64,000 nt of DNA. It comes from Hahella sp. KA22 (GTDB lineage Bacteria > Pseudomonadota > Gammaproteobacteria > Pseudomonadales > Oleiphilaceae). Position 1 is the stretch's first letter. Every line of letters starts with the position of its first letter. The stretch lies in assembly GCF_004135205.1 (NCBI RefSeq), contig NZ_CP035490.1, forward strand, positions 2,063,501 to 2,127,500. The letters are read 5' to 3'. The position numbers and the translations under genes were made by a program. The notes below the pieces were generated by a model. That model was not told the origin of the DNA. It did not search any database and saw nothing but the letters and a program-made list of their open reading frames with translations. Shown in pieces: positions 1,406 through 16,672 of the stretch.

Positions 1406-1849
1406 ATGAAGAGCATGCAAAAAGGTTTTACCCTTATTGAATTAATGATCGTTGTTGCGATCATTGGTATTTTGGCCGCTGTAGCGATTCCTGCTTATCA
1501 GGATTACACTGCTCGCGCTCAGATATCAGAAGGGTTGTCGCTGTCTGGCGGTTTGAAAACTACTATTACTGAGATTTGGACTCAGGAAGGTTCTCTGGCT
1601 ACTGCAGACAGTGGTAGCTCCGGTATTGCAGCTGAGTCAGACATCAGCGGCAAATATGTCGAAAAAGTGAACGTTACTGATGGTTTGGTGACTATTACGA
1701 TGAAGAGCACCGGCGTAGCTCAAGCTATCCAAGGCAAAACTTATAACATCAGCCCTGTTACTGGCGTTGGCTCAATCAAGTGGGCTTGTAAAGCAGGCGC
1801 TGCCGCTACCAAAATCGACGTTAAGTATCTGCCTAAGAGCTGCAGCTAA
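1406..1849 (+). CDS. pilA: Type IVa major pilin PilA
   Basis: Structural subunit of the type IV pilus, made as a prepilin in the inner membrane. The 7-residue basic leader MKSMQKG is followed by the prepilin peptidase site G/FTLIEL, with Glu at mature position 5, and by the hydrophobic alpha1 segment MIVVAIIGILAAVAIPAY. Length (147 aa) is typical. Two cysteines, C128 and C146, would form the C-terminal disulfide loop. The protein ends in Ser-Cys-Ser, so Ser147 lies directly after the loop cysteine; in group I Pseudomonas pilins the terminal serine is O-glycosylated. TAGGAG stands 10 bases before the ATG. A sigma-54 promoter lies upstream and a strong terminator downstream. Base composition is closer to the core genes than to the following glycan genes. 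Confidence 0.97.
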   Translation: MKSMQKGFTLIELMIVVAIIGILAAVAIPAYQDYTARAQISEGLSLSGGLKTTITEIWTQEGSLATADSGSSGIAAESDISGKYVEKVNVTDGLVTITMKSTGVAQAIQGKTYNISPVTGVGSIKWACKAGAAATKIDVKYLPKSCS

Positions 1850-1874
1850 TAATATAGTAGCAGCCTAGCGCAAT

Positions 1875-1911
1875 AAAAGGCCAAGGTTAAACCCTTGGCC
1901 TTTTTGTTTTT
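1875..1911 (+). terminator. Intrinsic terminator after pilA
   Basis: GGCCAAGG at 1879-1886 and CCTTGGCC at 1893-1900 form an 8-base-pair stem with a 6-base loop, followed by TTTTTGTTTT. It lies between pilA and the glycosyltransferase gene starting at 1930. That downstream gene should therefore receive only read-through transcription unless it has its own promoter. Confidence 0.9.
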
Positions 1912-1929
1912 GGGATTTGGAAATCTGCC

Positions 1930-3825
1930 TTGAAAAGCACTCTCACTAGCCTTCTTTTTTTGCTCACTCTGACGTTTCTCCTTGTGGGGGGGTATAAGCT
2001 TTATGCTCCTGGTATGCAAGGGGAGTTTATGTTCGATGACGTCCCAAATCTAAGTGTGTTGGGAAACCAAGGGACGATCGACTCACTAAATAAGCTTAAA
2101 GTTTACCTTAATAGCGGTTTTGCTGGGCCAACTAAGCGCCCGGTATCAATGGCTAGTTTCTTAATTGACGCTCAGAGCTGGCCTGCAGATCCGTTCTCGT
2201 TCAAGAAGACAAATGTCCTTATACACCTTCTTAATTGTTGTTTATTAGCATGGTTTGCCTATTTACTCCTCTCGTTAGTTACTGTCGATAAGACATGCTC
2301 GGCGGCAGTACTGGCGCTTGTATGCGCTGCTGTTTGGCTGCTCCACCCTCTTTGGGTTTCCTCTGTTCTATACGTTATTCAGCGGATGGCGACATTAGCG
2401 ACAACGTTTAGTTTGGCGGCGCTAATTACATTTCTTAAGCTCCGATGCGTGGATTCAAAAGATGGGTTTAGTCTGAAGGCTCTCTGCTATGCTTTTTTGT
2501 GCGTTATCTTGTCAATTTTGGCGGTATTCTCTAAAGAGAGTGCTGCAGTATTGCCTTTCCTGTTCTTGAGTGTTGATGTTGTTTTGCAGGCAGCGAATAG
2601 GAATAGTCGGCGCTCATGGATGCTTGTTAGGTGCTTGTTGACTCTGGGTTGTTTTTTTGTCATTGGGTATCTACTCTACCGCGGCGTTCCAGCTTGGTCT
2701 TTGGAAAGTTCACGGCGTGACTTTACGGTCGGTGAGCGCTTCTGGACTGAGGGTAGAGTGTTATGGATGTATATATATGATTTGTTAATACCTAAAGCGT
2801 ACTCATCTGGACTATTCGTTGAGATATCTGCCTCTAAAGGTGCATTTTCTCCCCTTGGTGGGTTATTTGGGTGGTTGGCCATTTTAGGGATATGTTTGCT
2901 GGTTTATGTTCTGCGTAAAAGACTGCCTTTCCTGGCAATAGGAGTGCTAGGATATTTTTCAGGGCACCTTATTGAATCCACAGTCATACCCTTGGAACTA
3001 TACTTTGAGCATAGGAACTATTTGCCAGGAGCTATGCTTTCGGTCTGCTTGCTCGAACTGTTTACCCGAATAAGAAAGAAAACGGTTCTTGCAGCTCTAT
3101 TTGGCTTGTGTATTTCTATTGAAAGTCTACTTCTGTTTATCAGAGTTGATATGTGGGGGACATATTCAACTTTAGTTAAATCATGGGCTTTGCATGATGT
3201 ATCTTCTTTAAGAAGCCAGCTTGAAGCTTCTCGTGCTAGCTACGAGGAAGGGGATTTGTCAAAGACTTACAAATACTTGTCAAACGCTCTTCTGTACCAC
3301 CCCCAATCCGGCGAAGCATGGCTTTGGAAAATAATACTTGACTGCAGTTTATCAAAGAAAATTTCTGATGTGGATCTTACTAATGCCATAACGTCCTTAG
3401 AAGATGCTAAAGAAAGTGGGACGTTGCTTCGATATTTTGAGACTATTGTTAGTATTAGCGACTATGAACAGTGTAAAGGTCTAGATGTTGTAGGCTTAAT
3501 AGATGCGTATCAGAGTGCAAACGCTATTAAGGGTTCAAAAACATATAGTAGACTGGATGTTCTCGCTGGGCAGTATTTTCTAAGCAGAGGAGATGTAGCT
3601 AATTCAGTTAACAGGTTTGATCGAGCTGTACTAAAGCTCCGCTCTATAAACACCGGCTTGCTATCAGTTGCTATGTTAGCTTCGGGAGGCTTTCGGTCCG
3701 AAGCGCTTGAGCTGCTTATTAAATATGAAAAAATGTATACCCTTAAAGAACTTTGGGGAAGTGACTTTGATTATCAGATGGAGATTGATGGACTTAAGGC
3801 TAAGATACAGGAAGACCTTAACTGA
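1930..3825 (+). CDS. GT-C fold membrane glycosyltransferase with TPR-like C-terminus, candidate pilin glycosyltransferase
   Basis: A 631-residue polytopic membrane protein. After a first membrane helix (residues 5-22) comes a periplasmic loop with FDDVPN, Asp36-Asp37. Further on are KRPVSMASF, NVLIHLLN and a HPLWVSSVLYVIQRMA segment. This pattern is typical of PMT/TMTC-like GT-C proteins, in which the first-loop acidic pair binds the metal or lipid-phosphate sugar donor. About ten membrane helices end near residue 400. The last 200 residues are soluble and helical with TPR-like repeats. The start is TTG, with only a weak ribosome site. It sits 18 bases beyond the pilA terminator, the place occupied by tfpO or tfpW in Pseudomonas, so pilin glycosylation is a good guess. 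Acting on the neighbouring surface polymer instead cannot be excluded. AT-rich codon use. Confidence 0.6.
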   Translation: MKSTLTSLLFLLTLTFLLVGGYKLYAPGMQGEFMFDDVPNLSVLGNQGTIDSLNKLKVYLNSGFAGPTKRPVSMASFLIDAQSWPADPFSFKKTNVLIHLLNCCLLAWFAYLLLSLVTVDKTCSAAVLALVCAAVWLLHPLWVSSVLYVIQRMATLATTFSLAALITFLKLRCVDSKDGFSLKALCYAFLCVILSILAVFSKESAAVLPFLFLSVDVVLQAANRNSRRSWMLVRCLLTLGCFFVIGYLLYRGVPAWSLESSRRDFTVGERFWTEGRVLWMYIYDLLIPKAYSSGLFVEISASKGAFSPLGGLFGWLAILGICLLVYVLRKRLPFLAIGVLGYFSGHLIESTVIPLELYFEHRNYLPGAMLSVCLLELFTRIRKKTVLAALFGLCISIESLLLFIRVDMWGTYSTLVKSWALHDVSSLRSQLEASRASYEEGDLSKTYKYLSNALLYHPQSGEAWLWKIILDCSLSKKISDVDLTNAITSLEDAKESGTLLRYFETIVSISDYEQCKGLDVVGLIDAYQSANAIKGSKTYSRLDVLAGQYFLSRGDVANSVNRFDRAVLKLRSINTGLLSVAMLASGGFRSEALELLIKYEKMYTLKELWGSDFDYQMEIDGLKAKIQEDLN

Positions 3826-3857
3826 CCCTTTGAACCCAAAAGATGAGAGGTTGTTAG

Positions 3858-4922
3858 GTGTTTATAGTTATTGTTGGCACTAAAGCTCAGCTGGTAAAAA
3901 TGGCGCCGGTTATTAGGGAGCTAGAAAAGAGAGCGCAACCGTTTAAATTTATATTAACAGGTCAGCACTCAGAAACTATGGAAGACCTCGTTTCTTCGTT
4001 TGGCATTCGAGCCCCAGAAGACAGTTTGTATACATTAGGTGAAGCGGACTCGGCACCGAAGCTTTTTAAATGGTTATGCTGTGCGACTAAAGCCGCCTCA
4101 TCACGATCATACTTTCGTGACATAAATATTAAAGCCATACTCGTCCACGGCGATACTATGTCAACCTTATTGGGAGCTTATATTGGCTGGAAGTATAATA
4201 TTTCAGTGGCGCATGTAGAAGCAGGACTAAGATCCTTTAATTATATGCACCCGTTCCCTGAAGAAATAATTCGTGTTTGTGTTTCAAAACTCTCCCAATT
4301 TCACTATTGCCCTGGTAAATGGGCTGTGGAAAATATAAGAAGTAAAGGAGTTATTATTGACACGGCTCAGAACACACTAGTTGACTCCCTTAAACTTGTA
4401 TACAATCAAGAAGGGGGGCGTCTCTTAGAAAAATATGCTGTAATTTCGCTGCATAGAACAGAAAATGTCAGTAACGATAAAAGATTTAACTTTATTATGG
4501 AGCAAGTTGTATCTATTTCGAAGCAAATACGAGTTAAATTCGTACTTCATCCGGTAACAAGATCAAAGCTCGACTCTTCTGGCTGGCGGGCTAAGCTCCA
4601 ACTTTTGTCAGAAGTTGAACTGTGTCCAAGGATGGACTATCTAAAGTTTGTATCGCTGCTTTGCGGCGCTAACTTTCTTGTTACAGATGGGGGGAGCAAT
4701 CAGGAGGAGGCGTCGTACATCGGGTTACCTTGTCTGTTAATGCGGGAGTACACAGAAAGGCAGGAAGGCCTGGGAACAAATGTGGTTTTGTCAAAATATA
4801 AGGAAGCTGTTATAGCCGAGTTTGTGCGAAAGCACGCTAGTTCGTCTCCTGATATAAATTTTCATGTTGACTATGAAAGAAGTCCATCAGAAATAATTGT
4901 TGATCATTTGATGTCGATATGA
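3858..4922 (+). CDS. UDP-N-acetylglucosamine 2-epimerase family protein (WecB/MnaA type)
   Basis: The family interconverts UDP-GlcNAc and UDP-ManNAc in the cytoplasm, supplying ManNAc for surface polymers. The protein (354 aa; usual length about 375) opens with an IVIVGTKAQLVKMAPVI nucleotide-sugar fold. It keeps the residues matching the E. coli WecB catalytic set: Asp99 in HGDT, Glu121 in HVEAGLR, Glu135 in PFPEE and His199 in SLHRTEN. The DGGSNQEE segment near 280 is the UDP-binding part. The start is GTG. It lies 32 bases after the GT-C gene and its stop overlaps the next gene's ATG (ATGA). It resembles its family less than core WecB does, so a variant substrate is possible. In Gram-positives MnaA makes ManNAc for the teichoic acid linkage unit. 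Confidence 0.8.
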   Translation: MFIVIVGTKAQLVKMAPVIRELEKRAQPFKFILTGQHSETMEDLVSSFGIRAPEDSLYTLGEADSAPKLFKWLCCATKAASSRSYFRDINIKAILVHGDTMSTLLGAYIGWKYNISVAHVEAGLRSFNYMHPFPEEIIRVCVSKLSQFHYCPGKWAVENIRSKGVIIDTAQNTLVDSLKLVYNQEGGRLLEKYAVISLHRTENVSNDKRFNFIMEQVVSISKQIRVKFVLHPVTRSKLDSSGWRAKLQLLSEVELCPRMDYLKFVSLLCGANFLVTDGGSNQEEASYIGLPCLLMREYTERQEGLGTNVVLSKYKEAVIAEFVRKHASSSPDINFHVDYERSPSEIIVDHLMSI

Positions 4923-6097
4923 AGATTGATAAATCTAATCCTTCTCACTGGAAAGCACTGATACTATCAGCAATTGTGGTAGTAGCTTCTCTTCTTATTC
5001 GCTGGATTAATGTAGGTAAACGGAATAAATATGTTGCTCTTTATGGACACAAGCTTAACGGGAATTTAGGGGCTTTATACTGGGCTAACGAAGCTAACAA
5101 GCTGAATGGGGCCGAACTTATCTTTCTTACGATGGACGAAAAGTACCATGAGGGGTTAATAGAGAATGGGGTAAGGTCTATATTGCTTACTAAACTTTCG
5201 TCTGCGTCTATTCTAGCAAGTACAGTTTGTGTAGTGTCAGACCATGGCTTGCATGCGATGAGTCTATTATTAAAGTTGACATCCATAAAATTTGTAGATG
5301 TGTGGCATGGTATTCCGTTCAAGGGATTTATTCCGGACGATTTCTCGGTGCAGAGAGAGTACGACGAAGTGTGGGTGACTTCTGAAAAAGTAAAGGAAAT
5401 GTATACAAGTAGATTCGGGTTTGAAGAGGAGCATGTAAAAGTTACTGGTTACGCTAGAACGGATATTTTAATAAAGAAAAGCCTGGATATTAATAAACTA
5501 AAAGTTAGATTGCGTCTCCCTGATCATAAAAAAGTAATCTTGTTTGCGCCAACTTGGCGGCAGGACCATGAGGGGCGAAGTGTTATCCCATTTGGCGAAA
5601 GTAGTGAGAGCTATTTTAAAAAGTTAGAGGATCTCTGTGCTAGTCAGGGGTGCATCGTCGCATTTCGTACCCATTTAAACTCTGGCGAAATACTAACTTC
5701 GAGTAACTACAGAAATATATACTTCTTGCCGCATGCGGACTTTCCTAACACGGAAGAAATACTACTTGTGTCGGATATAATGGTCTGCGATTGGTCTTCT
5801 ATAGCTTTCGATTTTCTGTTGCTCGATAGACCAACTATATTTTTAGATGTTCCCCCTCCATTTAAGAATGGATTTTCTTTTGGTCCTGAGTATAGATTTG
5901 GGGAAATTGTAGGAGATCAAGGTGAGATGCTACATGCCTTGGATATGTATATTGATAATCCAGGTTCGTATTGGGACTTATATGGTGTGGGCTGCGAGAA
6001 TGTAAAAGCTGATTTATATGCCGATTTAGCAGACGGTGAAGCGAGCGTCAGAGGCCTTCGGCGTATAGAGGCTATTATAAACGGATTTTCTCTATAA
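4919..6097 (+). CDS. TagF-like CDP-glycerol:poly(glycerophosphate) glycerophosphotransferase
   Basis: The family transfers sn-glycerol-3-phosphate from CDP-glycerol to a growing polymer at the inner face of the membrane. A single membrane helix (about 13-29) precedes the catalytic domain. Family landmarks appear in order: VDVWHGIPFKGF near 130 (the conserved HG), a GYARTD segment near 178, ILFAPTWR near 208, FRTHLN near 247 and CDWSSIAFDFL near 297 (the donor-binding S-S/D region). Length (392 aa) matches a bare catalytic domain without the long N-terminal part of Bacillus TagF. It overlaps the epimerase gene by 4 bases. Its end overlaps the convergent cytidylyltransferase gene, which would make its donor. 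Strongly AT-rich. Confidence 0.85.
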   Translation: MKIDKSNPSHWKALILSAIVVVASLLIRWINVGKRNKYVALYGHKLNGNLGALYWANEANKLNGAELIFLTMDEKYHEGLIENGVRSILLTKLSSASILASTVCVVSDHGLHAMSLLLKLTSIKFVDVWHGIPFKGFIPDDFSVQREYDEVWVTSEKVKEMYTSRFGFEEEHVKVTGYARTDILIKKSLDINKLKVRLRLPDHKKVILFAPTWRQDHEGRSVIPFGESSESYFKKLEDLCASQGCIVAFRTHLNSGEILTSSNYRNIYFLPHADFPNTEEILLVSDIMVCDWSSIAFDFLLLDRPTIFLDVPPPFKNGFSFGPEYRFGEIVGDQGEMLHALDMYIDNPGSYWDLYGVGCENVKADLYADLADGEASVRGLRRIEAIINGFSL

Positions 6098-6479
6098 CTT
6101 CAGTTGTTGATATCGCAGGTGTTCTATCAAGATAGACGATTTTGCAAATATCTTTAAGGTCATCGAACTTTCCTTTCCAATCGTCACCCATGACTAATAT
6201 GTGAGCATTTTGTTCAAGTATATAGTTTCTCTTTTTTTCTAAGGACTCTTCTAAAAATACCGCGTCTACACACTTTAAGGCAGATATGATTTCTAACCTT
6301 TCAGATTCAGAGTAAACTGGGTAGCGGCCTTTCTTTGAATAGTTAAGCTGATCGGTGGAAACTCCGACAATTAGCTGTGCGCCCATGGACTTCGCTCTCA
6401 TAAGGAGTCTAAGGTGGCCAACATGAAATACGTCGAAAGTACCGAAAGTTATCACCGTCTCTGTATTTTTCTTGCTCAT
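6075..6479 (-). CDS. Glycerol-3-phosphate cytidylyltransferase (TagD-like)
   Basis: Makes CDP-glycerol from CTP and glycerol-3-phosphate, the donor for poly(glycerol phosphate). At 134 aa it has the normal length of TagD. The two signature motifs of the cytidylyltransferase family are intact: HVGH near residues 19-22 (the HxGH nucleotide-binding motif, within FGTFDVFHVGHL) and RTPAISTT near 118-125 (the RTxGISTT motif with Ala in place of Gly). VMGDDWKGKFD near 97-107 is the segment typical of TagD rather than of choline- or ethanolamine-phosphate enzymes. The ATG overlaps the upstream HAD gene stop by the sequence ATGA, so the two are translationally coupled. The last 23 bases overlap the end of the opposing TagF-like gene. 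Confidence 0.9.
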   Translation of the reverse strand: MSKKNTETVITFGTFDVFHVGHLRLLMRAKSMGAQLIVGVSTDQLNYSKKGRYPVYSESERLEIISALKCVDAVFLEESLEKKRNYILEQNAHILVMGDDWKGKFDDLKDICKIVYLDRTPAISTTEVIEKIRL

Positions 6480-8551
6480 GATAAAGGGGGCTTGCTTTTC
6501 TTTTCAATTTTACTGGATGTAGACTCAATGCGCGATAATATTCGCCCAACAAAAGCCACTAAAGGTCTGGATATAGACGTGGAGCCCTGGAACCATGTCC
6601 ATTTTGGTGAGATCTGTCTATTGAGCAGTAATGCTGCAAAAAAAACTTTAATAAGCTCAGGAAAAGAAAGTGGGTGAGCTAGTACTCTTTCTTGGCTGGC
6701 ATCGTGGCTGGTTAACGCAAATATACGACTTTCACAAATTGACAGTGCCTCTAAACGCTTAGGAAACTTATAAAACAGCTCGAATGTTTCGATTGCCTCC
6801 TCTCTAATCAAGTAAAGCTGAGAAAACTGCTCTAGGCTGAATAGCTTGGAATATCGATGTGCATCTTCTTGTAGTTTATCAATATAGATAGTGTAGTCGC
6901 TATTATGAGTTTCTTTAAGTTTTGGTTCTACCCTTGAATTTTTATATTCATAGCACTTTGTTGACCCATGGTCCGCGGCGCAGAATACTTCTTCTAATAA
7001 TGTCATTGGCCCTAACTTAAATAGCCAATTATATTCGGGGGCTCCTTCGTTAGTTATGAATGCCTTAAACGGAGCCAAAGTCTGAGGATGCTTTTTTCCC
7101 ACTCCGAAGTAGTACCCTACAAGCGCATCCTTTTTGTTATCTTTCACTATTTTATATAGTGCGTTATGGGATGAGAGATGCCAGCCTATATCGACAATAG
7201 CAATATTTCCTGGCTCAAATACTCCCATGGTTGAGAGGTATTCATTTATGTACGCCCGTTGACTCGCGAAGTGGTTAAGTAATAGGGTGGATTCTTCCGA
7301 CTCTGCCAGAAATGTAAGTAATTTTTTGACGTTTTCCTTGTTGGTAGTGGTTATTAATTTTTGGTGCTTACTTTCTAACTTGTCTAATATCTTTCTGCAG
7401 TAATCCTCTGGTATTGATAGATCACTTAAAATTTGCTGCATGGAACGATTTGGATACTTGTTGAGTATAAGTTGAGTGAATTCCTCATCTAAAGTGCTAA
7501 ACGATGCAGGATACCAAGCAGCTCTTGACCCATATATGTAGTGACACTCGATATTGCTATCTTTAAAAATACCCTTTGCAATTTTATAAAAAATTTGGGC
7601 GTTGCGCGCCACAAAATATAGTCTTTTTATATCATCTTGCTGTGCTTGATTGATTAACCATGATACAAAGCTATTGAGCAGAGGCGCAGAAATATAAGAG
7701 GAAATGATCTGAAGAGGGCCGTTGAGTTCGCTTGAGTGTGAAACTAGTCTTGATGCTCCAAGAGATGTCGAAAGAGCAAGTCTATTTTGTATATTTAGCT
7801 TGTCTAAAGGGTGCTTGTAGAGCTTTCTATAGAGTTTGGATTTTCTCTGAAGTAGGTCCGTTAAAAGGTCTAAGCACGAGGTTTTATGCTGCAGTATATT
7901 GATATACCTTCGAGCAAGCCTGCTTTCCTCAACATGAACCGTATTGACTCCTTGGCTTCTTGGAACTTTGATGTCTGATAAAATATTGTCGCCAATATGG
8001 CAAAGCTCATTTGCTTCTATACTTTCCTTTTTGAGAATATGCTGAAAAAGCGCCCCAGATCTTTTTGTTAGGCCAACTTCCCCTGATGAGTATATTGGAA
8101 CTCCTTGTATATTGTAGCCACATTTAAGAAGAATTGCGCTCAACACATCCTTTGGAAGATACATGTCAGAAATAAAGATAACTCTAGCGCCTTCAGCGCG
8201 CAGTTTATGAAAACGATCAAGAGTCGGCCTTATGGGGTGGGCTGAAGTAATTTCCAATTCAATTTCTTTGCCCTTTATTTCATCTAAAAGAGATCTATCG
8301 TTGATTTTTTTTAACATTTCTTCATAGATGTCATCTAATAGAACATCTTGTCTATTAGAATTCATGCGCGCTGACTGTTCAGCTTGGTGACGTAGCTTTG
8401 GAAAGTTTAGGTCATGGAGTAGGTGTGATCCGTTACTCTCCATATTATAAGACAGTTCAATGAAAAGGTCATAGGGTTGGTGCTGGCGTCTTGATATACA
8501 TGTATCGAATATGTCGAAAGAATACACTTTTACTTCTTTATCTTCGTTCAT
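6476..8551 (-). CDS. Large HAD-domain protein (COG5610 type), copy 1
   Basis: A 691-residue protein with an N-terminal HAD-fold domain (about 8-215) and a long C-terminal region. Motif I is FDIFDT, with nucleophile Asp13 and Thr17; the +2 position, normally the acid/base Asp of phosphatases, is Phe15. Motif II is FISDMYLP, the lysine motif is in GLTKRSG, and motif IV is HIGDN. The C-terminal half carries YFVARNAQIFYKI near 310 and IVDIGWHLSSHNALYK near 450, shared with the next upstream gene. COG5610-like proteins occur in polysaccharide clusters, often near glycerophosphotransferases, but their reaction is not known to me. A role in making or trimming a phosphate-containing glycan is inference. 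Coupled to the TagD-like gene by ATGA. Confidence 0.7.
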   Translation of the reverse strand: MNEDKEVKVYSFDIFDTCISRRQHQPYDLFIELSYNMESNGSHLLHDLNFPKLRHQAEQSARMNSNRQDVLLDDIYEEMLKKINDRSLLDEIKGKEIELEITSAHPIRPTLDRFHKLRAEGARVIFISDMYLPKDVLSAILLKCGYNIQGVPIYSSGEVGLTKRSGALFQHILKKESIEANELCHIGDNILSDIKVPRSQGVNTVHVEESRLARRYINILQHKTSCLDLLTDLLQRKSKLYRKLYKHPLDKLNIQNRLALSTSLGASRLVSHSSELNGPLQIISSYISAPLLNSFVSWLINQAQQDDIKRLYFVARNAQIFYKIAKGIFKDSNIECHYIYGSRAAWYPASFSTLDEEFTQLILNKYPNRSMQQILSDLSIPEDYCRKILDKLESKHQKLITTTNKENVKKLLTFLAESEESTLLLNHFASQRAYINEYLSTMGVFEPGNIAIVDIGWHLSSHNALYKIVKDNKKDALVGYYFGVGKKHPQTLAPFKAFITNEGAPEYNWLFKLGPMTLLEEVFCAADHGSTKCYEYKNSRVEPKLKETHNSDYTIYIDKLQEDAHRYSKLFSLEQFSQLYLIREEAIETFELFYKFPKRLEALSICESRIFALTSHDASQERVLAHPLSFPELIKVFFAALLLNRQISPKWTWFQGSTSISRPLVAFVGRILSRIESTSSKIEKKSKPPLS

Positions 8552-8566
8552 TGACTATAACCGGTT

Positions 8567-10447
8567 TTAATTTTTTCTCTTATAGGGAATGAGAGACTTT
8601 ATTTTTCTAGTAATAGCCCGAACAGCCTCAAATACTCCTTTCCTTTGTATAAAGAATAGTAAATACTCATATTTTCTGAAGAGTGCAAAGTAAATGCTTG
8701 CCAGCGGTTTTATTTTGCGAGGTAAGAGAGCAATTGCTCCTTCAATCCAGAAACTTTTATAAGCTGTCAGAGTAAAAATAACTTTATCATAAGCACCTCC
8801 GTTTGCTCTATGTACATTGTGGATCAGCATTTTTTGCTTCGCCTCTCCAGCTAGACGTGTGTGAAAGGCTGTCCCTAGTATCATTGCATCAGAGTGGCCA
8901 GGACTGCTTAGCAAAAAGCTTAGTGCCTTTCTTCCTTGATACTGATGGTTTATTACTAGACCTGTCTTGGCTTGGAGTGCTTCTAAGTCGTCTAGAAAGG
9001 CCATAGCTCCGGCATGCATTTCCTCAATATTTTTGTAGTCAATGTTATTGTCGTTATAGAATACTGGAGCTCCCTTACTATCGATACTCTTTACTGAAGG
9101 ATGAGGTGCGGTGAATAGAAGTTCTGCAACTTCACACCCTTTCTCTACTAACAAACTCTCCATCCTCGGGAATCCTTTGTCGCAGTAGTAGCCTTCAACA
9201 TTTTCAGTTCTTGGGTTTGGAGATACTCCCAAATAGTAGCCTTGAAAGGTTATATTTTGAGACTTGAATATCGCCTCTAACATTGCTTGGCATGTGCCCT
9301 TCCACCCTATATCTATAATTGCAACTTTAGAGTTTCTGCTAATAAATTTTTTATAGTAATTTTCTATATTCGTACCTTCTATTTCAATACTTTTAATATC
9401 AATGCTCTTGCCATCTTTAAGAGTTGGAATATTAAGGCTTTCAATAAATGGATGAATCTTTTTTCTCAGCCCAAGTGATCTAGCTACAACGGTTTGATCT
9501 TTTTCCTTTCCTAGCAAAGCGATAGACATCATCCTTCTAGAGCAGTAAACATACTTGCTATTGAAGGATAGGCTCTCTTTCTCAATCCAAGCATAGGGGA
9601 GAAAGCCATCCCGAGATAAAAAGAGTACAGTGTCTGGGGCCATCTTATGTAACTTTTTTTCAATCCAGGAGGTAAAACCTTTTAGTATAATGCCTAGATA
9701 AATATAGCCTATAATGAACCACCCACTTTTTTGGGAGATGTAAATATCTCGGTAGAGAGAAGCTAGGCTTTTTTCCGCTGTTGTTCCATAATTAAATAAG
9801 CTTCTTACGTAAGGGTGTTGGCAGGCCCTTTCTGAATAATTTGAAAAGTTATAGTGAATACTATCTATCCTATTTTTTTTTGCTGACTTATAGTCGGAAT
9901 TAAAGTTGTCGCCAATATGAAGTATCTTTTTGTTAGGAAAATCGCTTAGTATCTCCTTGTATGCATTTCCGGTTGACTTTGTAACGCCAGTCTCACTGGA
10001 AACGTAAAGGCGATAAATGTTTGTGTAATCGTTATTATTTAATATTTTTTCAACTATTTTTTGTGGTAGATACATGTCGGATGTGAAGATAACTTTTTTG
10101 TTTTTATTTATTAAATAATCGTATGCCTCCTTTATTTCATTATTTGCTTTGCAATATTTGAGTTCAATCTCGATTTCTTTCTCAATATATTCATCGTCTA
10201 AAAGCGGGGTGCTATATATATCCCCTAAAGTGATATCTTCATGCGAGGCTCTAGTTTCTCTGGCGTGTTTTTCTGCATCTACCCTGAATTTCTTGAAGTC
10301 GGGGTTGTTGTACAAAGACTCTAGAATGGAAAAAATGTCAGTAGGCTCTGTAAGACTCCTAGTTATAGCAGTATCAAAAACATCAAGAGATATAATTTCG
10401 TAGCTATCTAGTATATTTCTATATTTATTTAGGAAAGTGGTTGTCAT
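8567..10447 (-). CDS. Large HAD-domain protein (COG5610 type), copy 2
   Basis: A paralogue of the neighbouring gene, 626 residues from the ATG at 10447. A TTG four codons further up, at 10459, is possible, but neither start has a clear ribosome site. The HAD domain has LDVFDT with nucleophile Asp22 and again Phe instead of Asp at +2, FTSDMYLP as motif II, GVTKSTG with the lysine, and HIGDN. The C-terminal region has FLSRDGFLPYAWIEKE near 280, a YCSRR segment and IIDIGWKGTCQAML near 380. These match the ARN.../DIGW positions of copy 1, so the two share the whole architecture and not only the HAD fold. It lies 15 bases upstream of copy 1 in the same transcription unit and is very AT-rich. Function unknown. 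Confidence 0.7.
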   Translation of the reverse strand: MTTTFLNKYRNILDSYEIISLDVFDTAITRSLTEPTDIFSILESLYNNPDFKKFRVDAEKHARETRASHEDITLGDIYSTPLLDDEYIEKEIEIELKYCKANNEIKEAYDYLINKNKKVIFTSDMYLPQKIVEKILNNNDYTNIYRLYVSSETGVTKSTGNAYKEILSDFPNKKILHIGDNFNSDYKSAKKNRIDSIHYNFSNYSERACQHPYVRSLFNYGTTAEKSLASLYRDIYISQKSGWFIIGYIYLGIILKGFTSWIEKKLHKMAPDTVLFLSRDGFLPYAWIEKESLSFNSKYVYCSRRMMSIALLGKEKDQTVVARSLGLRKKIHPFIESLNIPTLKDGKSIDIKSIEIEGTNIENYYKKFISRNSKVAIIDIGWKGTCQAMLEAIFKSQNITFQGYYLGVSPNPRTENVEGYYCDKGFPRMESLLVEKGCEVAELLFTAPHPSVKSIDSKGAPVFYNDNNIDYKNIEEMHAGAMAFLDDLEALQAKTGLVINHQYQGRKALSFLLSSPGHSDAMILGTAFHTRLAGEAKQKMLIHNVHRANGGAYDKVIFTLTAYKSFWIEGAIALLPRKIKPLASIYFALFRKYEYLLFFIQRKGVFEAVRAITRKIKSLIPYKRKN

Positions 10448-10464
10448 TGTTAGCACCAAAGCTA

Positions 10465-11688
10465 CTATCTGTGAACGTTAACTCCAATTGCACCGACAAG
10501 CTTCAAAATGGCTCTGTTTACCTTTTTAAATCCCGGTATATTCTTCAGTGTGAGCAAGAGTCTGATGAAAGGGCTGCTGTAAATTGTTTTAATGCTATCA
10601 GCTAAATCTAGCTTTAACTTTTTCAGATGCTTTGAATAGGCCTCCAGCTCGTATTGTAAGAGTGACTGTGAGTCTATTGAAAATGCACTGAGCTGAGAGT
10701 GGATCGACTTGTAATCGATAGGGCCATTTTGTTGCTTCTGTAGAGCTTCATGATTATGCTCTCCATTTGCAATATCTTTTATTAACTTAATAAGTTTCTC
10801 GGATGCACTACCTTCTTCAAGTTCGTCTTGGATACATAGCCTTTGATAGGCTAATTTTTGTAATGGAGGAAAAAGGAGCTCATGAATTACGCTTTCAATA
10901 TGATCTTTAGAGCGTATTTGCCAAGCAGAATTAAATAGTAGAGGCTCTATTCTATACTCAATTAAGCAAGTTGGTATATCAGCAAGCATGCCTTCGATAA
11001 GACAAGTTGATGGAAATGAAATTAGCGCATTTGAACGAGATAGTGACTCTTTGAATGTCTCGCCTTCAACATATGATGCTATGTCTAATTGACCCGCTAG
11101 CGTTTTAGGAATTCGCCATATAGGGATAAAAGACTTGTTGCGATCAAAAAAACTCTTTAAGTCTCTTAGTGCTTGAAGTACGTATAAATTATGTGAAAGA
11201 TTATGAGAGTATGTGTTTGCTGTGCATATTAGTATGGTTGGTTGGCTTGTTCTCTTTCTGGAAAATTCATAGTTGTCTAGCCTGGGAAGTCCTATAACAT
11301 TTATTTTATCAGCAAGGCCTAAAGAGGATAAGTATCTTGAGGGATTTCTTCCTATGGTGCACAAGTGATCGGCGACTAATGGCTGCATAAATGTGCCATC
11401 ATCGAAAATATAGCTATGATTGTTCCAAATGTATGTCCATTCGATTATGCCATCCATTACATAAATAACAGGTATTGACTTTTTTCTAGCCTCGGCGGAG
11501 ACCAGCCTGTAAAAAGGGATCCACTCTAAACTTAATAATAAAATGTCTGGAGAGTGCTTGTTTAAAAAGTCTTCAGGAATAAATGAGTGTGCTATATCAA
11601 AAATAAACTCAAAATCAGGGCAGTGTAGAGTGTTTCCGTATATTCTTGCCGCATCATCTTTTGTATTTAAGCATAGTATTCTGATCAT
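10465..11688 (-). CDS. Surface-glycan cluster protein, possible GT-B glycosyltransferase
   Basis: A 407-residue soluble protein that I do not recognise by family. The N-terminal part has a Rossmann-like start (IRILCLNTKDDAARIYG). A later segment, INVIGLPRLDNYEFSRK, and the stretch ISFPSTCLIEGMLADIPTCLI near 230-250 resemble the nucleotide-sugar-binding half of GT-B or TagF-like enzymes, in which a Ser-Thr pair precedes an acidic residue in a helix. The last 70 residues are basic and amphipathic, which could give membrane association. It lies between the HAD genes and the methyltransferase gene, all in one direction with short gaps. A transferase acting on the same polymer is the simplest reading. 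Low confidence in the function, good confidence that the gene is real. Confidence 0.55.
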   Translation of the reverse strand: MIRILCLNTKDDAARIYGNTLHCPDFEFIFDIAHSFIPEDFLNKHSPDILLLSLEWIPFYRLVSAEARKKSIPVIYVMDGIIEWTYIWNNHSYIFDDGTFMQPLVADHLCTIGRNPSRYLSSLGLADKINVIGLPRLDNYEFSRKRTSQPTILICTANTYSHNLSHNLYVLQALRDLKSFFDRNKSFIPIWRIPKTLAGQLDIASYVEGETFKESLSRSNALISFPSTCLIEGMLADIPTCLIEYRIEPLLFNSAWQIRSKDHIESVIHELLFPPLQKLAYQRLCIQDELEEGSASEKLIKLIKDIANGEHNHEALQKQQNGPIDYKSIHSQLSAFSIDSQSLLQYELEAYSKHLKKLKLDLADSIKTIYSSPFIRLLLTLKNIPGFKKVNRAILKLVGAIGVNVHR

Positions 11689-11701
11689 CGTATGTTGTCA
11701 T

Positions 11702-12481
11702 CTAATTATCTTTTCTGCATACAGCAATAAAGCATTCTGCTAAATCTTGATTCTTTATTGTTGTGTGTGTTATTCCTGCAGGCTGATTGTGGTTGTATTC
11801 TGATTTCGAGCCAGAGTTTTGATTGTAAATTATTTCAATGCGAAAATATTTTTCGATGTCTTCTTTAAAAGAAGAAAAGTTATATGTTCTTAGATGATGT
11901 TTTGTTAGTGGCCAATTATTGGGGGTGGAAATGATAAGAGTAGAACTTGGCTTAAGAACTCTATGGAACTCTTTTAGAATATCTACGCTAGGAGGAAGGT
12001 GTTCAATGGTTTCAAAGGATACAATGAGATCTAGAGAGGCAGAAGGTAAGCCTGTGTCGTCTGCTGAGGCTACTTTATAACTTGTATTAGCCGGACCATG
12101 CTTCTGTTTTGCATATGATATTGCGGAACTATCTATGTCTATGCCGGTAACGCTGTTAGCTTTTCCTTCTAGCGCTAAGATTTCAGAACCGTAGCCTGTT
12201 CCGCAAGCTATGTCTGCTACATCTAGGCCATTGCAATAGTTACTAGCAAACTCATATCTCATCAAATGAAAATTTCGTCTCGCTTCGTCAAAAAGTTCGT
12301 CTGTAGCATCCATGCGTTCATCTTTATTCTTTAACAGCCACGCACTACTGCTGCTGCCACTTATTCCACACACTATCGTTGTTAGCTGTTCAATCTGTTG
12401 TTTCTGTTGCTCTACTTGAGCTAGTAAGTGGTTTTTATCAAATCCCAACAATTTTTTGCGAATTTTTTGTATGATTTTCAC
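11702..12481 (-). CDS. Class I SAM-dependent methyltransferase
   Basis: A 259-residue methyltransferase of the Methyltransf_11/25 type. A short coiled coil (about 18-36) precedes the Rossmann domain. Motif I is DIACGTGYGSE near 90-100, the acidic residue at the end of beta2 is in VTGIDID near 112-118, and a SFETIEHLPP segment near 155 is the typical post-motif of this group. The gene sits 39 bases downstream of wzt. In ABC-transporter-dependent O-antigen systems, chain length is often set by a methyl- or phosphomethyl-transferase that caps the chain, with Wzt_C recognising the cap. The position fits such a role, but the protein could equally methylate an internal sugar. AT-rich like its neighbours. 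Confidence 0.8.
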   Translation of the reverse strand: MKIIQKIRKKLLGFDKNHLLAQVEQQKQQIEQLTTIVCGISGSSSSAWLLKNKDERMDATDELFDEARRNFHLMRYEFASNYCNGLDVADIACGTGYGSEILALEGKANSVTGIDIDSSAISYAKQKHGPANTSYKVASADDTGLPSASLDLIVSFETIEHLPPSVDILKEFHRVLKPSSTLIISTPNNWPLTKHHLRTYNFSSFKEDIEKYFRIEIIYNQNSGSKSEYNHNQPAGITHTTIKNQDLAECFIAVCRKDN

Positions 12482-12520
12482 ATTGGCTCCGAAATAGACA
12501 GGAATTGTTTGCTGATACTT

Positions 12521-13771
12521 TTATGGTTGAGCTGTCCACGCGGCTTTCGCAACAATAACACCTTCGCCCGGTAAAAGTTTTGAACCGTTACCAAAATAGT
12601 TGTCGAATAGCACCTCAATTTTTAAGCAGCTATTAGCTCGATCTAAGAACCCAACTAATCTTTGCCCAATTGCTATATCAAGGTAATAAATACCTTCTTT
12701 TAAAGGTAAGCTTTCTAACTTGCAATGTATCTTTCCACCATTAGGAAACTCCTCTATACACTTTTCATCAAAATAATTTCTAGAGGTTAGGGCCCTTACT
12801 CCATGAGAGTCATTAATTCCTATGGCGGCGTAATTGAGTCTTTTCTCATATGACTTATATGTTATTACTACTTCTAAGCTCTCTCCTGTCGCAACATGTC
12901 CTGAACTTCCATATTTCTCAGAAAAGATATCAACTCGTGTGATGATAGGGCTACTACTTGGGGCTTCATAAAAGGATTTGACGCCAACAGTTAGTAATTC
13001 CGAGTATCTTGAAAGTACATGCTCGAACCTATCAAAGCTCTCAAGTTTTCCTTGATTTAATAACAAACCTTTATCACAAAGGCTTTGTAATTGGCTGACA
13101 TTATGGCTAACGAAAAGTAGTGTTCTTCCCCCCGATTGGACTTCATTCATTTTTCCTATGCATTTTTTTTGGAACTGAGCGTCGCCAACGGCTAATACTT
13201 CGTCAACAATAAATATGTCCGGCTCTAAGTGGGCTGCCACGGAGAAAGCCAATCTAACGTACATGCCGCTGGAGTAGCGCTTCACCGGTGTGTCGAGAAA
13301 CTTTTCTACTTCAGAGAAATCTACTATTTCATCAAACTTACGCTTTATATCGCGTTTGGTCATGCCAAGTATGGCGCCATTTAGAAAGATGTTCTCTCTT
13401 CCAGTTAACTCTGGGTGAAACCCTGTGCCTACTTCTAGTAGACTCGCAATTCTACCTTTGATTCCTATCCAGCCTGATGAGGGCTCAGTAATGCGGCTCA
13501 GAATCTTTAATAAAGTCGACTTTCCAGCTCCATTTCTCCCTAGTATACCAATACGATCACCTTGTTTTATTTCAAAGCTTATATTGTCCAGAGCGGAGAA
13601 TAGTTCATATTCTTCCTTGTCAGCACCTTTTGACATTGGGTGTCTAATTTTGGTCGAAATTTGCCTGCCTACTGAAGAAAGCTTTTCCGAAAATGTAAGG
13701 TATCTAGGAGACATCTGGTGGGTAATCAGATAGGTCTTTGATACTTCTTGTGCCTTGATTGCAATTGACAT
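12521..13771 (-). CDS. wzt: ABC transporter ATP-binding protein with carbohydrate-binding C-domain (Wzt/TagH type)
   Basis: The nucleotide-binding subunit of an ABC-2 polysaccharide or teichoic acid exporter. The ATPase domain has Walker A GRNGAGKST near 78-86, signature YSSGMYVRLAFS near 170 and Walker B DIFIVDEVLAVGD, followed by the switch histidine in FVSHN. Residues from about 285 to 416 form a separate beta-rich domain, as in the Wzt C-terminal domain that recognises the finished, terminally modified glycan. That domain makes the protein longer (416 aa) than plain TagH/KpsT ATPases (about 220-260). It lies 8 bases downstream of the permease gene, so the two form a pair. A polymer exported by an ABC transporter and selected by this domain is the expected substrate. 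Confidence 0.92.
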   Translation of the reverse strand: MSIAIKAQEVSKTYLITHQMSPRYLTFSEKLSSVGRQISTKIRHPMSKGADKEEYELFSALDNISFEIKQGDRIGILGRNGAGKSTLLKILSRITEPSSGWIGIKGRIASLLEVGTGFHPELTGRENIFLNGAILGMTKRDIKRKFDEIVDFSEVEKFLDTPVKRYSSGMYVRLAFSVAAHLEPDIFIVDEVLAVGDAQFQKKCIGKMNEVQSGGRTLLFVSHNVSQLQSLCDKGLLLNQGKLESFDRFEHVLSRYSELLTVGVKSFYEAPSSSPIITRVDIFSEKYGSSGHVATGESLEVVITYKSYEKRLNYAAIGINDSHGVRALTSRNYFDEKCIEEFPNGGKIHCKLESLPLKEGIYYLDIAIGQRLVGFLDRANSCLKIEVLFDNYFGNGSKLLPGEGVIVAKAAWTAQP

Positions 13772-13779
13772 TTATTACA

Positions 13780-14610
13780 CTATATTATATCTGCAAATTT
13801 ATTTTCTGTTTTTCTGAAATAAAGATAGCCTGTAAATAATAGGGCGATAGTTACAAATATAGATAAGAAAAATCCAGGCCAATAAAAGCTGACGTTCTCA
13901 TCTAGAATTGACCAGCGGAACCCATCAATAATCCCCACCAAAGGATTCAGGGAGTATACGTATCTCCATTCGTTTGACATGACGGTTGATGAAAATCCAA
14001 CTGGTGATATGAATAATCCAAATTGAACAATGAATGGGATAATATATCTTATGTCTCTATATTTTACATTTAAAGCAGACATCCAAATTATTGCGGCGCC
14101 AGTGAATGCTGCGGAGATCAGGAAAAATACAGGAAGTGCAATTATTTTGTATGTCGGCGGGTATTGAAGAAATATCATTAGCAGCAGAAGTAAGAAAAAT
14201 GAAATGATGAAATCTACTGCATTAACAAAGAGGCTGCTAATTGGAATAATGATTCTTGGGAAGTAAATTTTTGAAATCATATTGGCGTTTGATACAAGTG
14301 CATTACTTCCATCTTGAAAGCTACTAGAGAAAAAGAACCATGGCAGCATTGCTGAAAATACTAAAATAGAATATGGCGCTTGACCTTGGCTTGGCAAAGC
14401 CGCTATTTTTCCAAAAACAATAGTAAACACTAGCATTGTCATCAGTGGTCTTAGAATAGCCCAGAGAGACCCTACTATAGTTTGTTTATACCTGACTTTG
14501 AAATCTCGTAGGGCTAGAAAGTAGAATAAATCTCTGTATTCCCATATCTCACTAATAAAGGTGGTTACTTTTTTATTTGGCCGGATTATAAAGTCAAAAT
14601 TATTGTTCAT
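13780..14610 (-). CDS. wzm: ABC-2 type polysaccharide export permease (Wzm/TagG type)
   Basis: The inner-membrane permease for an undecaprenyl-linked glycan, paired with the ATPase gene just downstream. The protein (276 aa) has a cytoplasmic amphipathic start with the family segment LALRDFKVRYKQTIVGSLWAI (about 32-52) and then six membrane helices. The family marker SLNPLVGIIDGFRW lies near 220. Length and motif order are those of Wzm, KpsM and TagG. It starts 12 bases after the GT2 gene stop. The family alone does not say whether the substrate is O-antigen, capsule or a teichoic-like polymer. Confidence 0.93.
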   Translation of the reverse strand: MNNNFDFIIRPNKKVTTFISEIWEYRDLFYFLALRDFKVRYKQTIVGSLWAILRPLMTMLVFTIVFGKIAALPSQGQAPYSILVFSAMLPWFFFSSSFQDGSNALVSNANMISKIYFPRIIIPISSLFVNAVDFIISFFLLLLLMIFLQYPPTYKIIALPVFFLISAAFTGAAIIWMSALNVKYRDIRYIIPFIVQFGLFISPVGFSSTVMSNEWRYVYSLNPLVGIIDGFRWSILDENVSFYWPGFFLSIFVTIALLFTGYLYFRKTENKFADII

Positions 14611-14622
14611 TTTATGAAGGGC

Positions 14623-15471
14623 TTACTTTTTCTGGTACATTAGGGATGTCACTTGTTCTGAAATTAACCCCATGGCGAATATCAATACAGAAGTTATATA
14701 AAGCAGTGCGCTCATATTTGTGAATCTACCCTGGTCTATGTAGGTGTGAGCATAGTGAATGCTTGCTAAGCTAAAAAATAGTAAAGATGTTGGGAAAAAG
14801 ACCTTTAGAGGCGAGTAGAGTGTGCCAATTTTAAATATTATTAATAGAAAGCGTACGCCGTCTCGGATAATCCGAATATGACTTTTTCCTAAGCGCTTAT
14901 TGGCAAGAATTGGTATATATGAGACTGAGTAGCCGGCTCTAAAGAAAGCCATTGTGCAGGTTGTAGGGTATGAAAAACCATTTGGCAATAGATATAGAAA
15001 TTCACGAAACTTATCCGCTCGTACTGCACGAAAGCCTGAAGTTAAGTCTTCAACTTTATGTCCCACAATTAATGTGGCTAGCCAGTTATAAAGCGCATTT
15101 GCCCCGCCTCTCGATATATTAGCTTGCGATTGGAGTCCTTGCCTGGCGCCGATGACCATATCGTGCCCCTCATCTATTTTGGCCAGCAACTGCCTTACGT
15201 CTTTTGCATTATGCTGGCCATCACCATCCATAAACACGATTACATCCTGTGTTGCTGCTCGTGCTCCAGTTTTAATTGCTGCGCCGTTGCCTTTGCTATA
15301 TGGGTGGCTAATGACATTGACATTATTTGAAATACAGACTTCTCTAGTATTGTCTGTTGAGCCATCATCAATAACAATAATTTCAGCTTCAGGGTATAGA
15401 CTGCGAAGTTCTGGAAGAAAGGTTGAGAGGCCTGCTGATTCATTTTTAGCTGGTATGACTATAGAAAACAC
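14623..15471 (-). CDS. GT2 family glycosyltransferase (polyprenyl-phosphate sugar synthase-like)
   Basis: A 282-residue enzyme of the dolichol-phosphate mannose synthase-like group. It has the GT2 start SIVIPAKNESAGL, the nucleotide-binding VIDDGSTDNT near 33-42, the metal-binding DGDGQH (DxD-type) near 90-95 and an EDLTSGFRAVR acceptor motif near 140. Two hydrophobic helices at the C-terminus (about 220-275) anchor it in the membrane. Such enzymes make undecaprenyl-phosphate sugars, used for example by GT-C transferases such as the one downstream of pilA; that link is inference. The start is GTG at 15471 with no clear ribosome site. It is the first gene of the minus-strand series. Confidence 0.85.
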   Translation of the reverse strand: MFSIVIPAKNESAGLSTFLPELRSLYPEAEIIVIDDGSTDNTREVCISNNVNVISHPYSKGNGAAIKTGARAATQDVIVFMDGDGQHNAKDVRQLLAKIDEGHDMVIGARQGLQSQANISRGGANALYNWLATLIVGHKVEDLTSGFRAVRADKFREFLYLLPNGFSYPTTCTMAFFRAGYSVSYIPILANKRLGKSHIRIIRDGVRFLLIIFKIGTLYSPLKVFFPTSLLFFSLASIHYAHTYIDQGRFTNMSALLYITSVLIFAMGLISEQVTSLMYQKK

Positions 15472-15593
15472 TAAATTATACTTCCGCTCGTTGTGAATAA
15501 GGCTGAGTCATTTGTCTAGGATACATGATTAGAGAATTTTACTGATTTAACAATTTTATTGTGTAAACAGCAGATTAGCCGCATCTAAGCGAA

Positions 15594-16195: not shown

Positions 16196-16672
16196 ATGAA
16201 AGATAATAATTCAGTAAAAATGATGATTGCAGTGATTGCCGGTCTTATTCTTCCTATCGTGCTTGGCGTTGCGCTGAGTCTTTTCGGTATGCAGCCCACT
16301 TTTTCCTTCATGGCGGACGGCAGTGGATTAACGAGCCTCTTAACTTCTGGCGCAGGCATTGGCGTTTATTTGATCACCGCTGTGCTATTCATTCTGGCTG
16401 GCTTTTTGCCAGCGATATTGTCTGGAAGCTCGGAAGAGGCTTATGAGGAAGATAACGCCAATGACGAGCGCGAGTCGGGTATTGTTAAGTGGTTTAACCC
16501 GAATAAGGGATTTGGCTTTATCACGCGCGAAGGTGGCGATGACATATTTGTTCACTTCCGCTCTATTCGAGGCAGAGGTCATCGTTCTTTGCGTCAGGGA
16601 CAGAAAGTGAGGTTCCGGACAGTGGAAGGGGACAAAGGTCTTCAGGCGGAGGATGTTTCTCCCGTTCGCTGA
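16196..16672 (+). CDS. Membrane-anchored cold-shock-domain protein
   Basis: A 158-residue protein with two membrane helices (about 8-30 and 55-80) joined to a C-terminal cold-shock domain (about 93-158). The domain has the nucleic-acid-binding RNP1 motif KGFGFITR and the RNP2 motif DIFVHF, with GIVKWFN at its start. Free CspA-type proteins are about 70 aa and cytoplasmic. Here the same fold is tethered to the membrane by an acidic linker ([14 protein letters not shown]). CSD proteins with added membrane segments (often DUF1294) exist, but the helices usually follow the CSD; here they precede it. The likely role is binding single-stranded RNA or DNA at the membrane. A bidirectional terminator follows. 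Confidence 0.85.

Follow-up and report, generated by a model that had tools for sequence, protein, structure and literature searches.

A predicted glycerol-phosphate glycan cassette at the pilA locus of Hahella sp. KA22 and its possible link to type IV pilin glycosylation

INTRODUCTION

Glycerol-phosphate capsules, phosphoribosyl pyrophosphate (PRPP)-dependent ribofuranosyltransferases, pilin accessory glycosyltransferases and meningococcal pilin phosphoglycerol are all in print, and each has features in common with a locus that we examined in Hahella sp. KA22. The stretch analysed comprises 64,000 nucleotides (nt) of contig NZ_CP035490.1 (positions 2,063,501 to 2,127,500; hereafter the window, by which positions are numbered). 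Downstream of its type IV pilin gene, pilA, lies a block of eleven intact genes according to open reading frame (ORF) calls (1930 to 15471). What appears to be new at this locus is the combination of such parts beside a pilin gene.

The Gram-positive wall teichoic acid pathway resembles the island in its Epimerase_2 protein, cytidine diphosphate-glycerol (CDP-glycerol) synthase, PF04464 transferase and ATP-binding cassette (ABC) exporter, and the equivalents of TagF H444 and P447 are kept in Hahella. Unlike that pathway, the island misses the curated cut-offs, lacks the TagO and TagA families, and has ribofuranosyltransferase-like fusions and a pilin module. The TagF-like capsule polymerases and CpsA of Actinobacillus also pair a PF04464 transferase with a source of CDP-glycerol in a Gram-negative organism, CpsA being a TagB-like glycerol-phosphate transferase of the transition type (PMC8262930, PMC11666461). 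However, these systems make group 2 capsules on a 3-deoxy-D-manno-octulosonic acid (Kdo) glycolipid, whereas the island exporter is of the O-antigen type with a Wzt_C domain, and the PF05159 (Kdo transferase) match of the genome is ~0.9 Mb away. Bcs3, the capsule polymerase of Haemophilus influenzae type b (Hib), has CroT, CrpP and CriT parts, all with counterparts in the island; CriT uses PRPP and the CrpP phosphatase removes the 5-phosphate (PMC10299916). In contrast to Bcs3, the island has these parts in separate proteins, a proline and not the glycine of the ribitol type, a TagD-like putative supplier of CDP-glycerol, and a pair of HAD fusions, of which one has an altered acidic residue in its phosphoribosyltransferase (PRT) part. 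The same fusion of a HAD phosphatase with a PRT is found in PRPP-dependent ribofuranosyltransferases (7shg; PMC11127046), but here such fusions accompany a glycerophosphotransferase at a pilA island.

On the pilus side, Pseudomonas aeruginosa pilin types are defined by accessory genes, among them the glycosyltransferase genes tfpO and tfpW, which are tied to pilA in the manner of the gene here called GTC; a terminator precedes tfpY, as a terminator-like site precedes GTC (PMC11841053). GTC differs from TfpO/TfpW in having a TPR-like C-terminus and, often, a GT2 as its partner, and in being associated with a large sugar cassette that is exchangeable. Glycerol phosphate occurs on the type IV pilin of Neisseria meningitidis via pptB, where it is carried directly on serine (PMC10948894), whereas we propose that here it reaches a glycan by a CDP-glycerol-type route. 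A literature search with poor cover of subscription journals found no teichoic-type pilin glycan, no TPR/GT-C pilin transferase, no pilA-linked TagF clade, no such set of parts beside a pilin gene and, for this organism, no data on pilin glycans.

We interpret the block, with slightly better than even confidence, as a glycerol-phosphate glycan cassette tied to type IV pilin glycosylation and not to a classical O-antigen or capsule. The same glycerol-phosphate enzymes are kept at the pilus locus in some other bacteria, so that the block may decorate pili. If this holds, teichoic-acid-type chemistry would be joined with type IV pilus glycosylation, and the idea of an anionic, phosphate-bearing glycan on pilin would have a concrete case in which it can be tested. 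By the precedent of TfpO/TfpW (PMC11841053), the exchangeable cassettes of the GT-C/TPR family may also govern pilus recognition, for example by pilus-binding phages.

RESULTS AND DISCUSSION

Pilin head, GTC and sugar cassette change together among congeners

DNA comparison with three close congeners (G001, G002 and G005) delimits an exchange block at 1542 to 15593. Homology breaks inside pilA (~1522 to 1542) and again at 15593, and no DNA between 1542 and 15593 could be aligned except for GT2 (66% to 70% identity, two congeners) and one 43-nt match in GTC (one congener). To the right of 15593 identity is back to 95% to 99%, and to the left of about −2000 it is 92% to 94% with G005 and 84% to 94% with G001. 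At the protein level, DapE is 97% to 98% identical between congeners versus 40% to 50% for PilA and 29% to 33% for GTC. The TagF-like protein had no match in any of the six congener genomes searched, of which four were informative (G003 had no PilA or GTC match in the fetched stretch, and G006 provided only 3.5 kb). Those four hold other sugar cassettes at the pilA locus; Wzx-type flippases were confirmed in two of these and a CTP-transferase in one, the remainder being read by eye. Thus, the pilin head, GTC and cassette change together in the congener comparisons, and the block is, as judged from alignment, a horizontally exchanged, putative glycan cassette of the pilA locus. As a separate observation, identity to close congeners is down to 68% to 83% across pilC-pilB and the first part of pilA (positions 1 to 1542 and the DNA preceding them), compared with 84% to 99% in the outer flanks, as if pilus genes had been exchanged with the cassette.

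GTC belongs to a pilin-linked family with a frequent GT2 partner

GTC (1930 to 3825, plus strand) begins 80 nt after pilA (1406 to 1849, plus strand; an ORF with the motif GFTLIELMIV) and upstream of 3858, where the stretch described in an initial annotation of this DNA started. Its product has nine hydrophobic stretches in a simple hydropathy scan, with invariant D36 and D37 after the first. The window protein itself had no Pfam match; among its relatives (n = 40) TPR models matched several members and PMT one, and 39 of the 40 had no catalytic-domain Pfam match at E 0.001. The matches listed for a GTC profile against the PDB (60 of 252) are to TPR-like repeats. Based on the hydropathy, the single PMT match among 40 members and the invariant aspartates, we predict GTC to be of the GT-C type, and it is a probable pilin glycosyltransferase.

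GTC homologues are carried by 105 of the 369 class genomes searched (this genome among them), and the pilin N-terminal motif was present at 22 of the 30 GTC loci fetched (again counting this genome) versus 0 of 19 control loci (65 kb). At 20 larger loci from the class, the best-scoring of 104 other genomes with a GTC match, a close GT2 (54% to 63% identity) and a PilA match were each found in 16. A wider set of 80 named loci, the best 80 of at least 585, had the pilin motif in 64 and a GT2 of at least 45% identity in 30 (28 of these on the GTC strand); where at least 3 kb was available on both sides (51 loci), the motif was found in 46 and GT2 in 21. Three of the four congeners with a GTC match likewise carry a GT2 with 60% to 64% identity. 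The link between GTC and pilin is therefore strong, and that between GTC and GT2 is frequent but not constant.

GT2 (14623 to 15471, minus strand) encodes a polyprenyl-phosphate-sugar-synthase-like protein (Glycos_transf_2, PF00535, E 3e-29) with two C-terminal hydrophobic stretches. We rejected it as a member of the polymer set, since in relatives it goes more with pilA and GTC; the cassette in the window sits between GTC and GT2. The GT-C/TPR family is sometimes found in tandem copies beside pilin genes. Among the ORFs that follow in other islands, a Pfam tally of 94 of the 114 listed (one with a changed start) gave 20 matches to Glycos_transf_1 and 9 to Methyltransf_23.

Epi, TagF-like and TagD-like genes point to glycerol phosphate

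Epi (3858 to 4922, plus strand) encodes a MnaA/WecB-like uridine diphosphate (UDP)-sugar 2-epimerase (PF02350, E 1e-54) that scores below the WecB cut-off (TIGR00236, 183.8 of 210.15 bits) and has GTKAQ where GTRPE is expected. It overlaps by 4 nt the gene for the TagF-like, CDP-glycerol-type glycerophosphotransferase (4919 to 6097, plus strand; 392 amino acids; PF04464, E 4e-38), the sole PF04464 match in the genome. This protein missed the cut-offs for TarB, TarF and TarL (NF041711, NF041712 and NF041713: 29.7, 69.1 and 84.7 of 500, 550 and 1000 bits), with TarL and TagF as its nearest solved relatives. Its H130 and P133 align with H444 and P447 of TagF (in a profile alignment, W-H-G-I-P at 129 to 133 versus W-H444-G-T-P447), and a proline at this site is conserved in glycerol-phosphate transferases, a glycine in ribitol-phosphate transferases (PMC10299916). 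The TagD-like glycerol-3-phosphate cytidylyltransferase (6075 to 6479, minus strand; PF01467, E 5e-23) has HVGH and RTPAISTT motifs, a TIGR01518 match (E 3e-35, but 121.2 of 165.4 bits) and 1coz as its best PDB match (E 2e-34). The kept proline, together with the TagD-like gene, supports CDP-glycerol as the donor, and the product is likely a glycan bearing glycerol phosphate. Since two ribofuranosyltransferase-like fusions share the operon, it is probably a mixed glycan and not plain poly(glycerol phosphate).

The initial annotation had described an epimerase, TagF-type and TagD-type enzymes, an ABC exporter, a methyltransferase and a GT2 in an AT-rich block beside pilA. All are intact ORFs, and the Pfam families of the seven genes named were borne out (PF02350, PF04464, PF01467, PF01061, ABC_tran with PF14524, PF08241 and PF00535). 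Seven of the ten genes at 3858 to 15471 were covered in this way; HAD1, HAD2 and GTx, which take up the 5.2 kb separating the TagD-like gene from the methyltransferase gene, had been missed. Its description of nearly the full wall teichoic acid set was too strong, given the missed curated cut-offs, the two fusions in the operon and a GT2 that is often part of the pilin module. On the same cut-offs, the named enzymes are relatives of the Gram-positive enzymes and not necessarily orthologues. TagO and TagA are indeed absent from the window as had been stated, yet their families occur elsewhere in the genome (three matches to PF00953, TagO-type, and one to PF03808, TagA-type; none in the window or gene cluster). 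As a further correction, the PF04464 protein is TagB-sized.

Teichoic-type genes recur at other pilA islands

Relatives of the cassette genes were present in the flanks of a few of the 80 named GTC loci (TagF 3, Epi 3, TagD 1, HAD1 1, GTx 1, Wzm 0). In Zhongshania aquimaris, the order is pilA, GTC, GT2, an ABC protein, TagF (42% identity), TagD (63%; its record shows an in-frame stop), Stealth, Epi (40%) and a UDP-sugar dehydrogenase. An uncultured gammaproteobacterium has Epi (36%), Stealth, TagF (40%) and TagD (67%) at a pilA-GTC-GT2 island, and the corresponding island of Alteromonadaceae bacterium Bs31 has TagF (40%) and Epi (39%), with no TagD-sized gene seen. Beside the Bs31 TagF relative are phosphonate-type genes, namely a phosphoenolpyruvate mutase-cytidylyltransferase fusion, a thiamine pyrophosphate enzyme and, by eye, a dehydrogenase-like ORF. 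Epi directly follows GT2 in a Microbulbifer and in Methyloglobulus morosus, and relatives of GTx (46%) and HAD1 (28% over 694 amino acids) follow two GTC genes in Frateuria terrea, without TagF.

Whole-genome search of 43 genomes, chosen from 44 GTC loci of at least 13.3 kb, detected TagF in five, four of them close (E 1e-90 to 1e-97) and the fifth distant (E 3e-6); E-values of these island comparisons, like those of the HAD1/HAD2, congener and locus comparisons, come from small files and look stronger than database E-values. Three of the four close relatives are at a pilA island, and the fourth is on a 5.8-kb contig with TagD (72%) that allows no placement. A further relative (43% over 82% of the query) is accompanied by TagD-like and Stealth genes on an 8.6-kb Halioglobus japonicus record. 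That record (NZ_CP019452.1), called a plasmid, has no listed replication gene and could be a piece of a chromosomal island that was left separate in assembly.

In a 21-row tree, whose long branches leave deeper placements unsure, six TagF proteins including the Halioglobus japonicus member form one clade (support 100/98) that excludes staphylococcal TarF and TarL as well as the homologues in ten other genomes of the class. None of those ten other TagF loci has the pilin motif (15 to 20 kb fetched each), and eight have a TagD-like gene, so that the pairing of TagD with TagF is no peculiarity of pilA loci. No relatives of the TagF-like protein were confirmed among IMG/VR viral contigs, nor in a genome-contig search with the single protein, which missed members of 40% identity and so is no evidence of rarity. 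As to whether the TagF-like protein would group with families of other known function, the tree did not refute its assignment; the clade is separate and has no characterised member. We tentatively suggest, with rather less than even confidence, that several Gammaproteobacteria make a teichoic-acid-like pilus glycan, in which a distinct TagF clade adds glycerol phosphate from CDP-glycerol, perhaps with phosphonate instead in one lineage, proteins of the widespread and unannotated GT-C/TPR family pass the glycan to pilin, and pilin head, transferase and cassette are exchanged together.

A true wall-teichoic-acid-like poly(glycerol phosphate), with the TagF-like enzyme as its polymerase, seems very improbable. 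The pairing of a PF04464 protein with a TagD-like enzyme and the nearest solved relatives, TarL and TagF, speak for it. However, the protein is TagB-sized and its clade stands apart from staphylococcal TarF/TarL, the TarL, TarF, TarB, WecB and TagH-type cut-offs were missed, and ribofuranosyltransferase-like genes share the operon with the TagD-like gene. The polymerase role was rejected on the tree, where the protein belongs to a clade of its own.

Two HAD-phosphoribosyltransferase fusions share the operon with the TagD-like gene

The plus-strand genes after pilA (GTC, Epi and TagF-like) converge on a minus-strand operon of eight genes, with the TagF-like and TagD-like genes overlapping by 23 nt. 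Starting from GT2, its first gene, the operon continues with Wzm, Wzt, a methyltransferase, GTx, HAD2, HAD1 and the TagD-like gene, with gaps of at most 39 nt and one 4-nt overlap (TagD-like/HAD1). HAD1 (6476 to 8551) and HAD2 (8567 to 10459) are predicted fusions of a HAD phosphatase and a PRT. HAD1 matches Bcs3 (E 3e-32) and the ribofuranosyltransferase 7shg (E 5e-19) across both parts. HAD2 is homologous to HAD1 (blastp E 7e-20 in a two-protein comparison), and phmmer of HAD2 against the PDB returned only weak, unrelated-looking matches. The phosphatase motifs are present in both proteins (DIFDT/DVFDT, SDMYLP, a lysine and GDN). In the family alignment, HAD2 also keeps both PRT acidic positions (SRDG and DIGWKG, equivalent to D680 and E818 of Bcs3), which makes it the better candidate for a working ribofuranosyltransferase.

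GTx (10465 to 11688) is a glycosyltransferase-like protein with weak matches, to NF046086 and, in a relative, to DUF6716, both below cut-off. Across the 369 genomes of the class it was found in its own genome only, and its profile had no match in the PDB; a relative with 46% to 47% identity is present in the Frateuria terrea GTC island. A role as a second glycerophosphotransferase was dropped, as GTx has no profile similarity to the TagF clade. The neighbouring gene (11702 to 12481) encodes an S-adenosylmethionine-dependent methyltransferase (PF08241, E 7e-20).

This layout could be that of a mosaic, in which Epi and TagF (with TagD) serve pilin while an unrelated polysaccharide is made and exported by HAD1, HAD2, GTx, the methyltransferase and Wzm/Wzt. 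The two convergent operons, with TagF and TagD on opposite strands, are consistent with such a division, as are three other TagF islands without relatives of HAD1, HAD2, GTx, Wzt or Wzm in the stretches covered. However, the TagD-like gene closes the minus-strand operon and shares 4 nt with HAD1, and relatives of GTx and HAD1 also occur in a GTC island, and we consider the division improbable.

An O-antigen-type exporter and a possible surface polysaccharide

Wzm (13780 to 14610, minus strand) is an ABC permease (ABC2_membrane, PF01061, E 2e-14), and Wzt (12521 to 13771, minus strand) is an ABC ATPase (ABC_tran, PF00005) with a C-terminal carbohydrate-binding Wzt_C domain (PF14524, 35.6 bits; cut-off 30.4). 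The cut-offs for TagGH-type exporters were missed (NF010065, PRK13545, TagH-type, 217.7 of 538 bits; NF010066, 176.6 of 320 bits). The pair has what defines ABC-dependent O-antigen exporters, a Wzm and a Wzt with Wzt_C, and this domain fits a predicted exporter of that type. A group 2 capsule (KpsC/KpsS) was rejected for want of PF05159 in or near the locus; the one match in the genome scores 39.6 bits.

A serious, although less probable, alternative to the pilin reading is an ABC-dependent O-antigen or other surface polysaccharide that contains glycerol phosphate and ribofuranose and is merely encoded at a recombination site by pilA, with GTC and GT2 acting separately on pilin. Such a polymer would be assembled on undecaprenyl diphosphate; the methyltransferase would cap it, Wzt_C would recognise it and Wzm/Wzt would export it. 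It is supported by Wzm and the Wzt_C domain, by the single eight-gene operon that joins Wzm/Wzt to the TagD-like gene and the HAD fusions, by HAD1 loci elsewhere with both Wzm and Wzt, and by the known Gram-negative capsules of glycerol phosphate that TagF-like enzymes make (PMC8262930). On the other side, Epi, TagF and TagD recur at pilA islands whose covered stretches show no Wzm/Wzt relatives, congener cassettes at the same site have Wzx-type flippases, and a separate sugar cluster at ~2.985 to 3.02 Mb, which contains two of the three PF00953 matches and the PF05159 match, has ORFs that read by eye like its own Wzm and Wzt.

Several observations weigh against a pilin glycan. Wzm/Wzt with Wzt_C, typical of ABC-exported O-antigens, is the main feature at odds with the other islands: Wzm relatives were found in none of the 80 other named GTC loci, the three islands whose exporter was examined carry a one-chain ABC_membrane and ABC_tran protein instead, and, among 13 HAD1 loci elsewhere, 3 have both Wzm and Wzt but no GTC match in the same stretch. 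At pilA there may be no more than a recombination site for surface-sugar genes. Relatives of Epi, TagF, TagD, HAD, Wzt or Wzm were found at none of the 20 class GTC loci, GT2 was found in the flanks of fewer than half of the named GTC loci (21 of the 51 with at least 3 kb on both sides), and a different GT2-family protein follows GTC in congener G001. The TagF-bearing pilA islands were found by GTC query, which gives no unbiased measure of the frequency of the clade away from pilA, and the record of the Halioglobus japonicus member has no pilin among its 13 listed features. In HAD1, the first PRT acidic position is replaced (ARNA, versus R-D/E-G in other family members covering the site, ARDG in the Frateuria terrea relative); HAD1 may work differently or as a phosphatase only.

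For a glycan on pilin, Epi would provide a UDP 2-epimer sugar of the N-acetylmannosamine type. Judging by hydropathy, family and frequent linkage, GT2 would load sugar onto undecaprenyl phosphate and GTC would transfer it to PilA in the periplasm. The TagD-like enzyme would make CDP-glycerol, from which the TagF-like protein would add glycerol phosphate to the glycan, as suggested by family, the H and P residues and TagD-TagF pairing. By homology to Bcs3, HAD2 and perhaps HAD1 would add beta-ribofuranose from PRPP and remove its 5-phosphate; the methyltransferase may modify or cap the glycan and Wzm/Wzt may carry it across the inner membrane. The pilA link is the strongest new evidence and is correlative. 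On the strength of this comparative link, the interpretation moves from O-antigen or capsule towards pilin glycosylation. Of the poly(glycerol phosphate)-containing O-antigen or capsule suggested initially, glycerol phosphate is retained as likely, while a plain polymer is improbable and comparison favours pilin.

Composition and neighbouring features

The GC content is 0.384 at 3858 to 14610 versus 0.513 at 16196 to 64000. Between pilA and GTC is a terminator-like hairpin of 12 pairs (1875 to 1904, plus strand); over the whole region such sites are not enriched (10 found versus a mean of 12.2 in shuffles). The separate sugar cluster also contains ORFs that read by eye like NeuB/NeuC-type nonulosonic acid genes. 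Immediately beyond the right edge of the exchange block, 16196 to 16672 encodes a small protein that is 99% to 100% identical in three congeners, with N-terminal hydrophobic stretches and a C-terminal domain that is cold-shock-like by eye.

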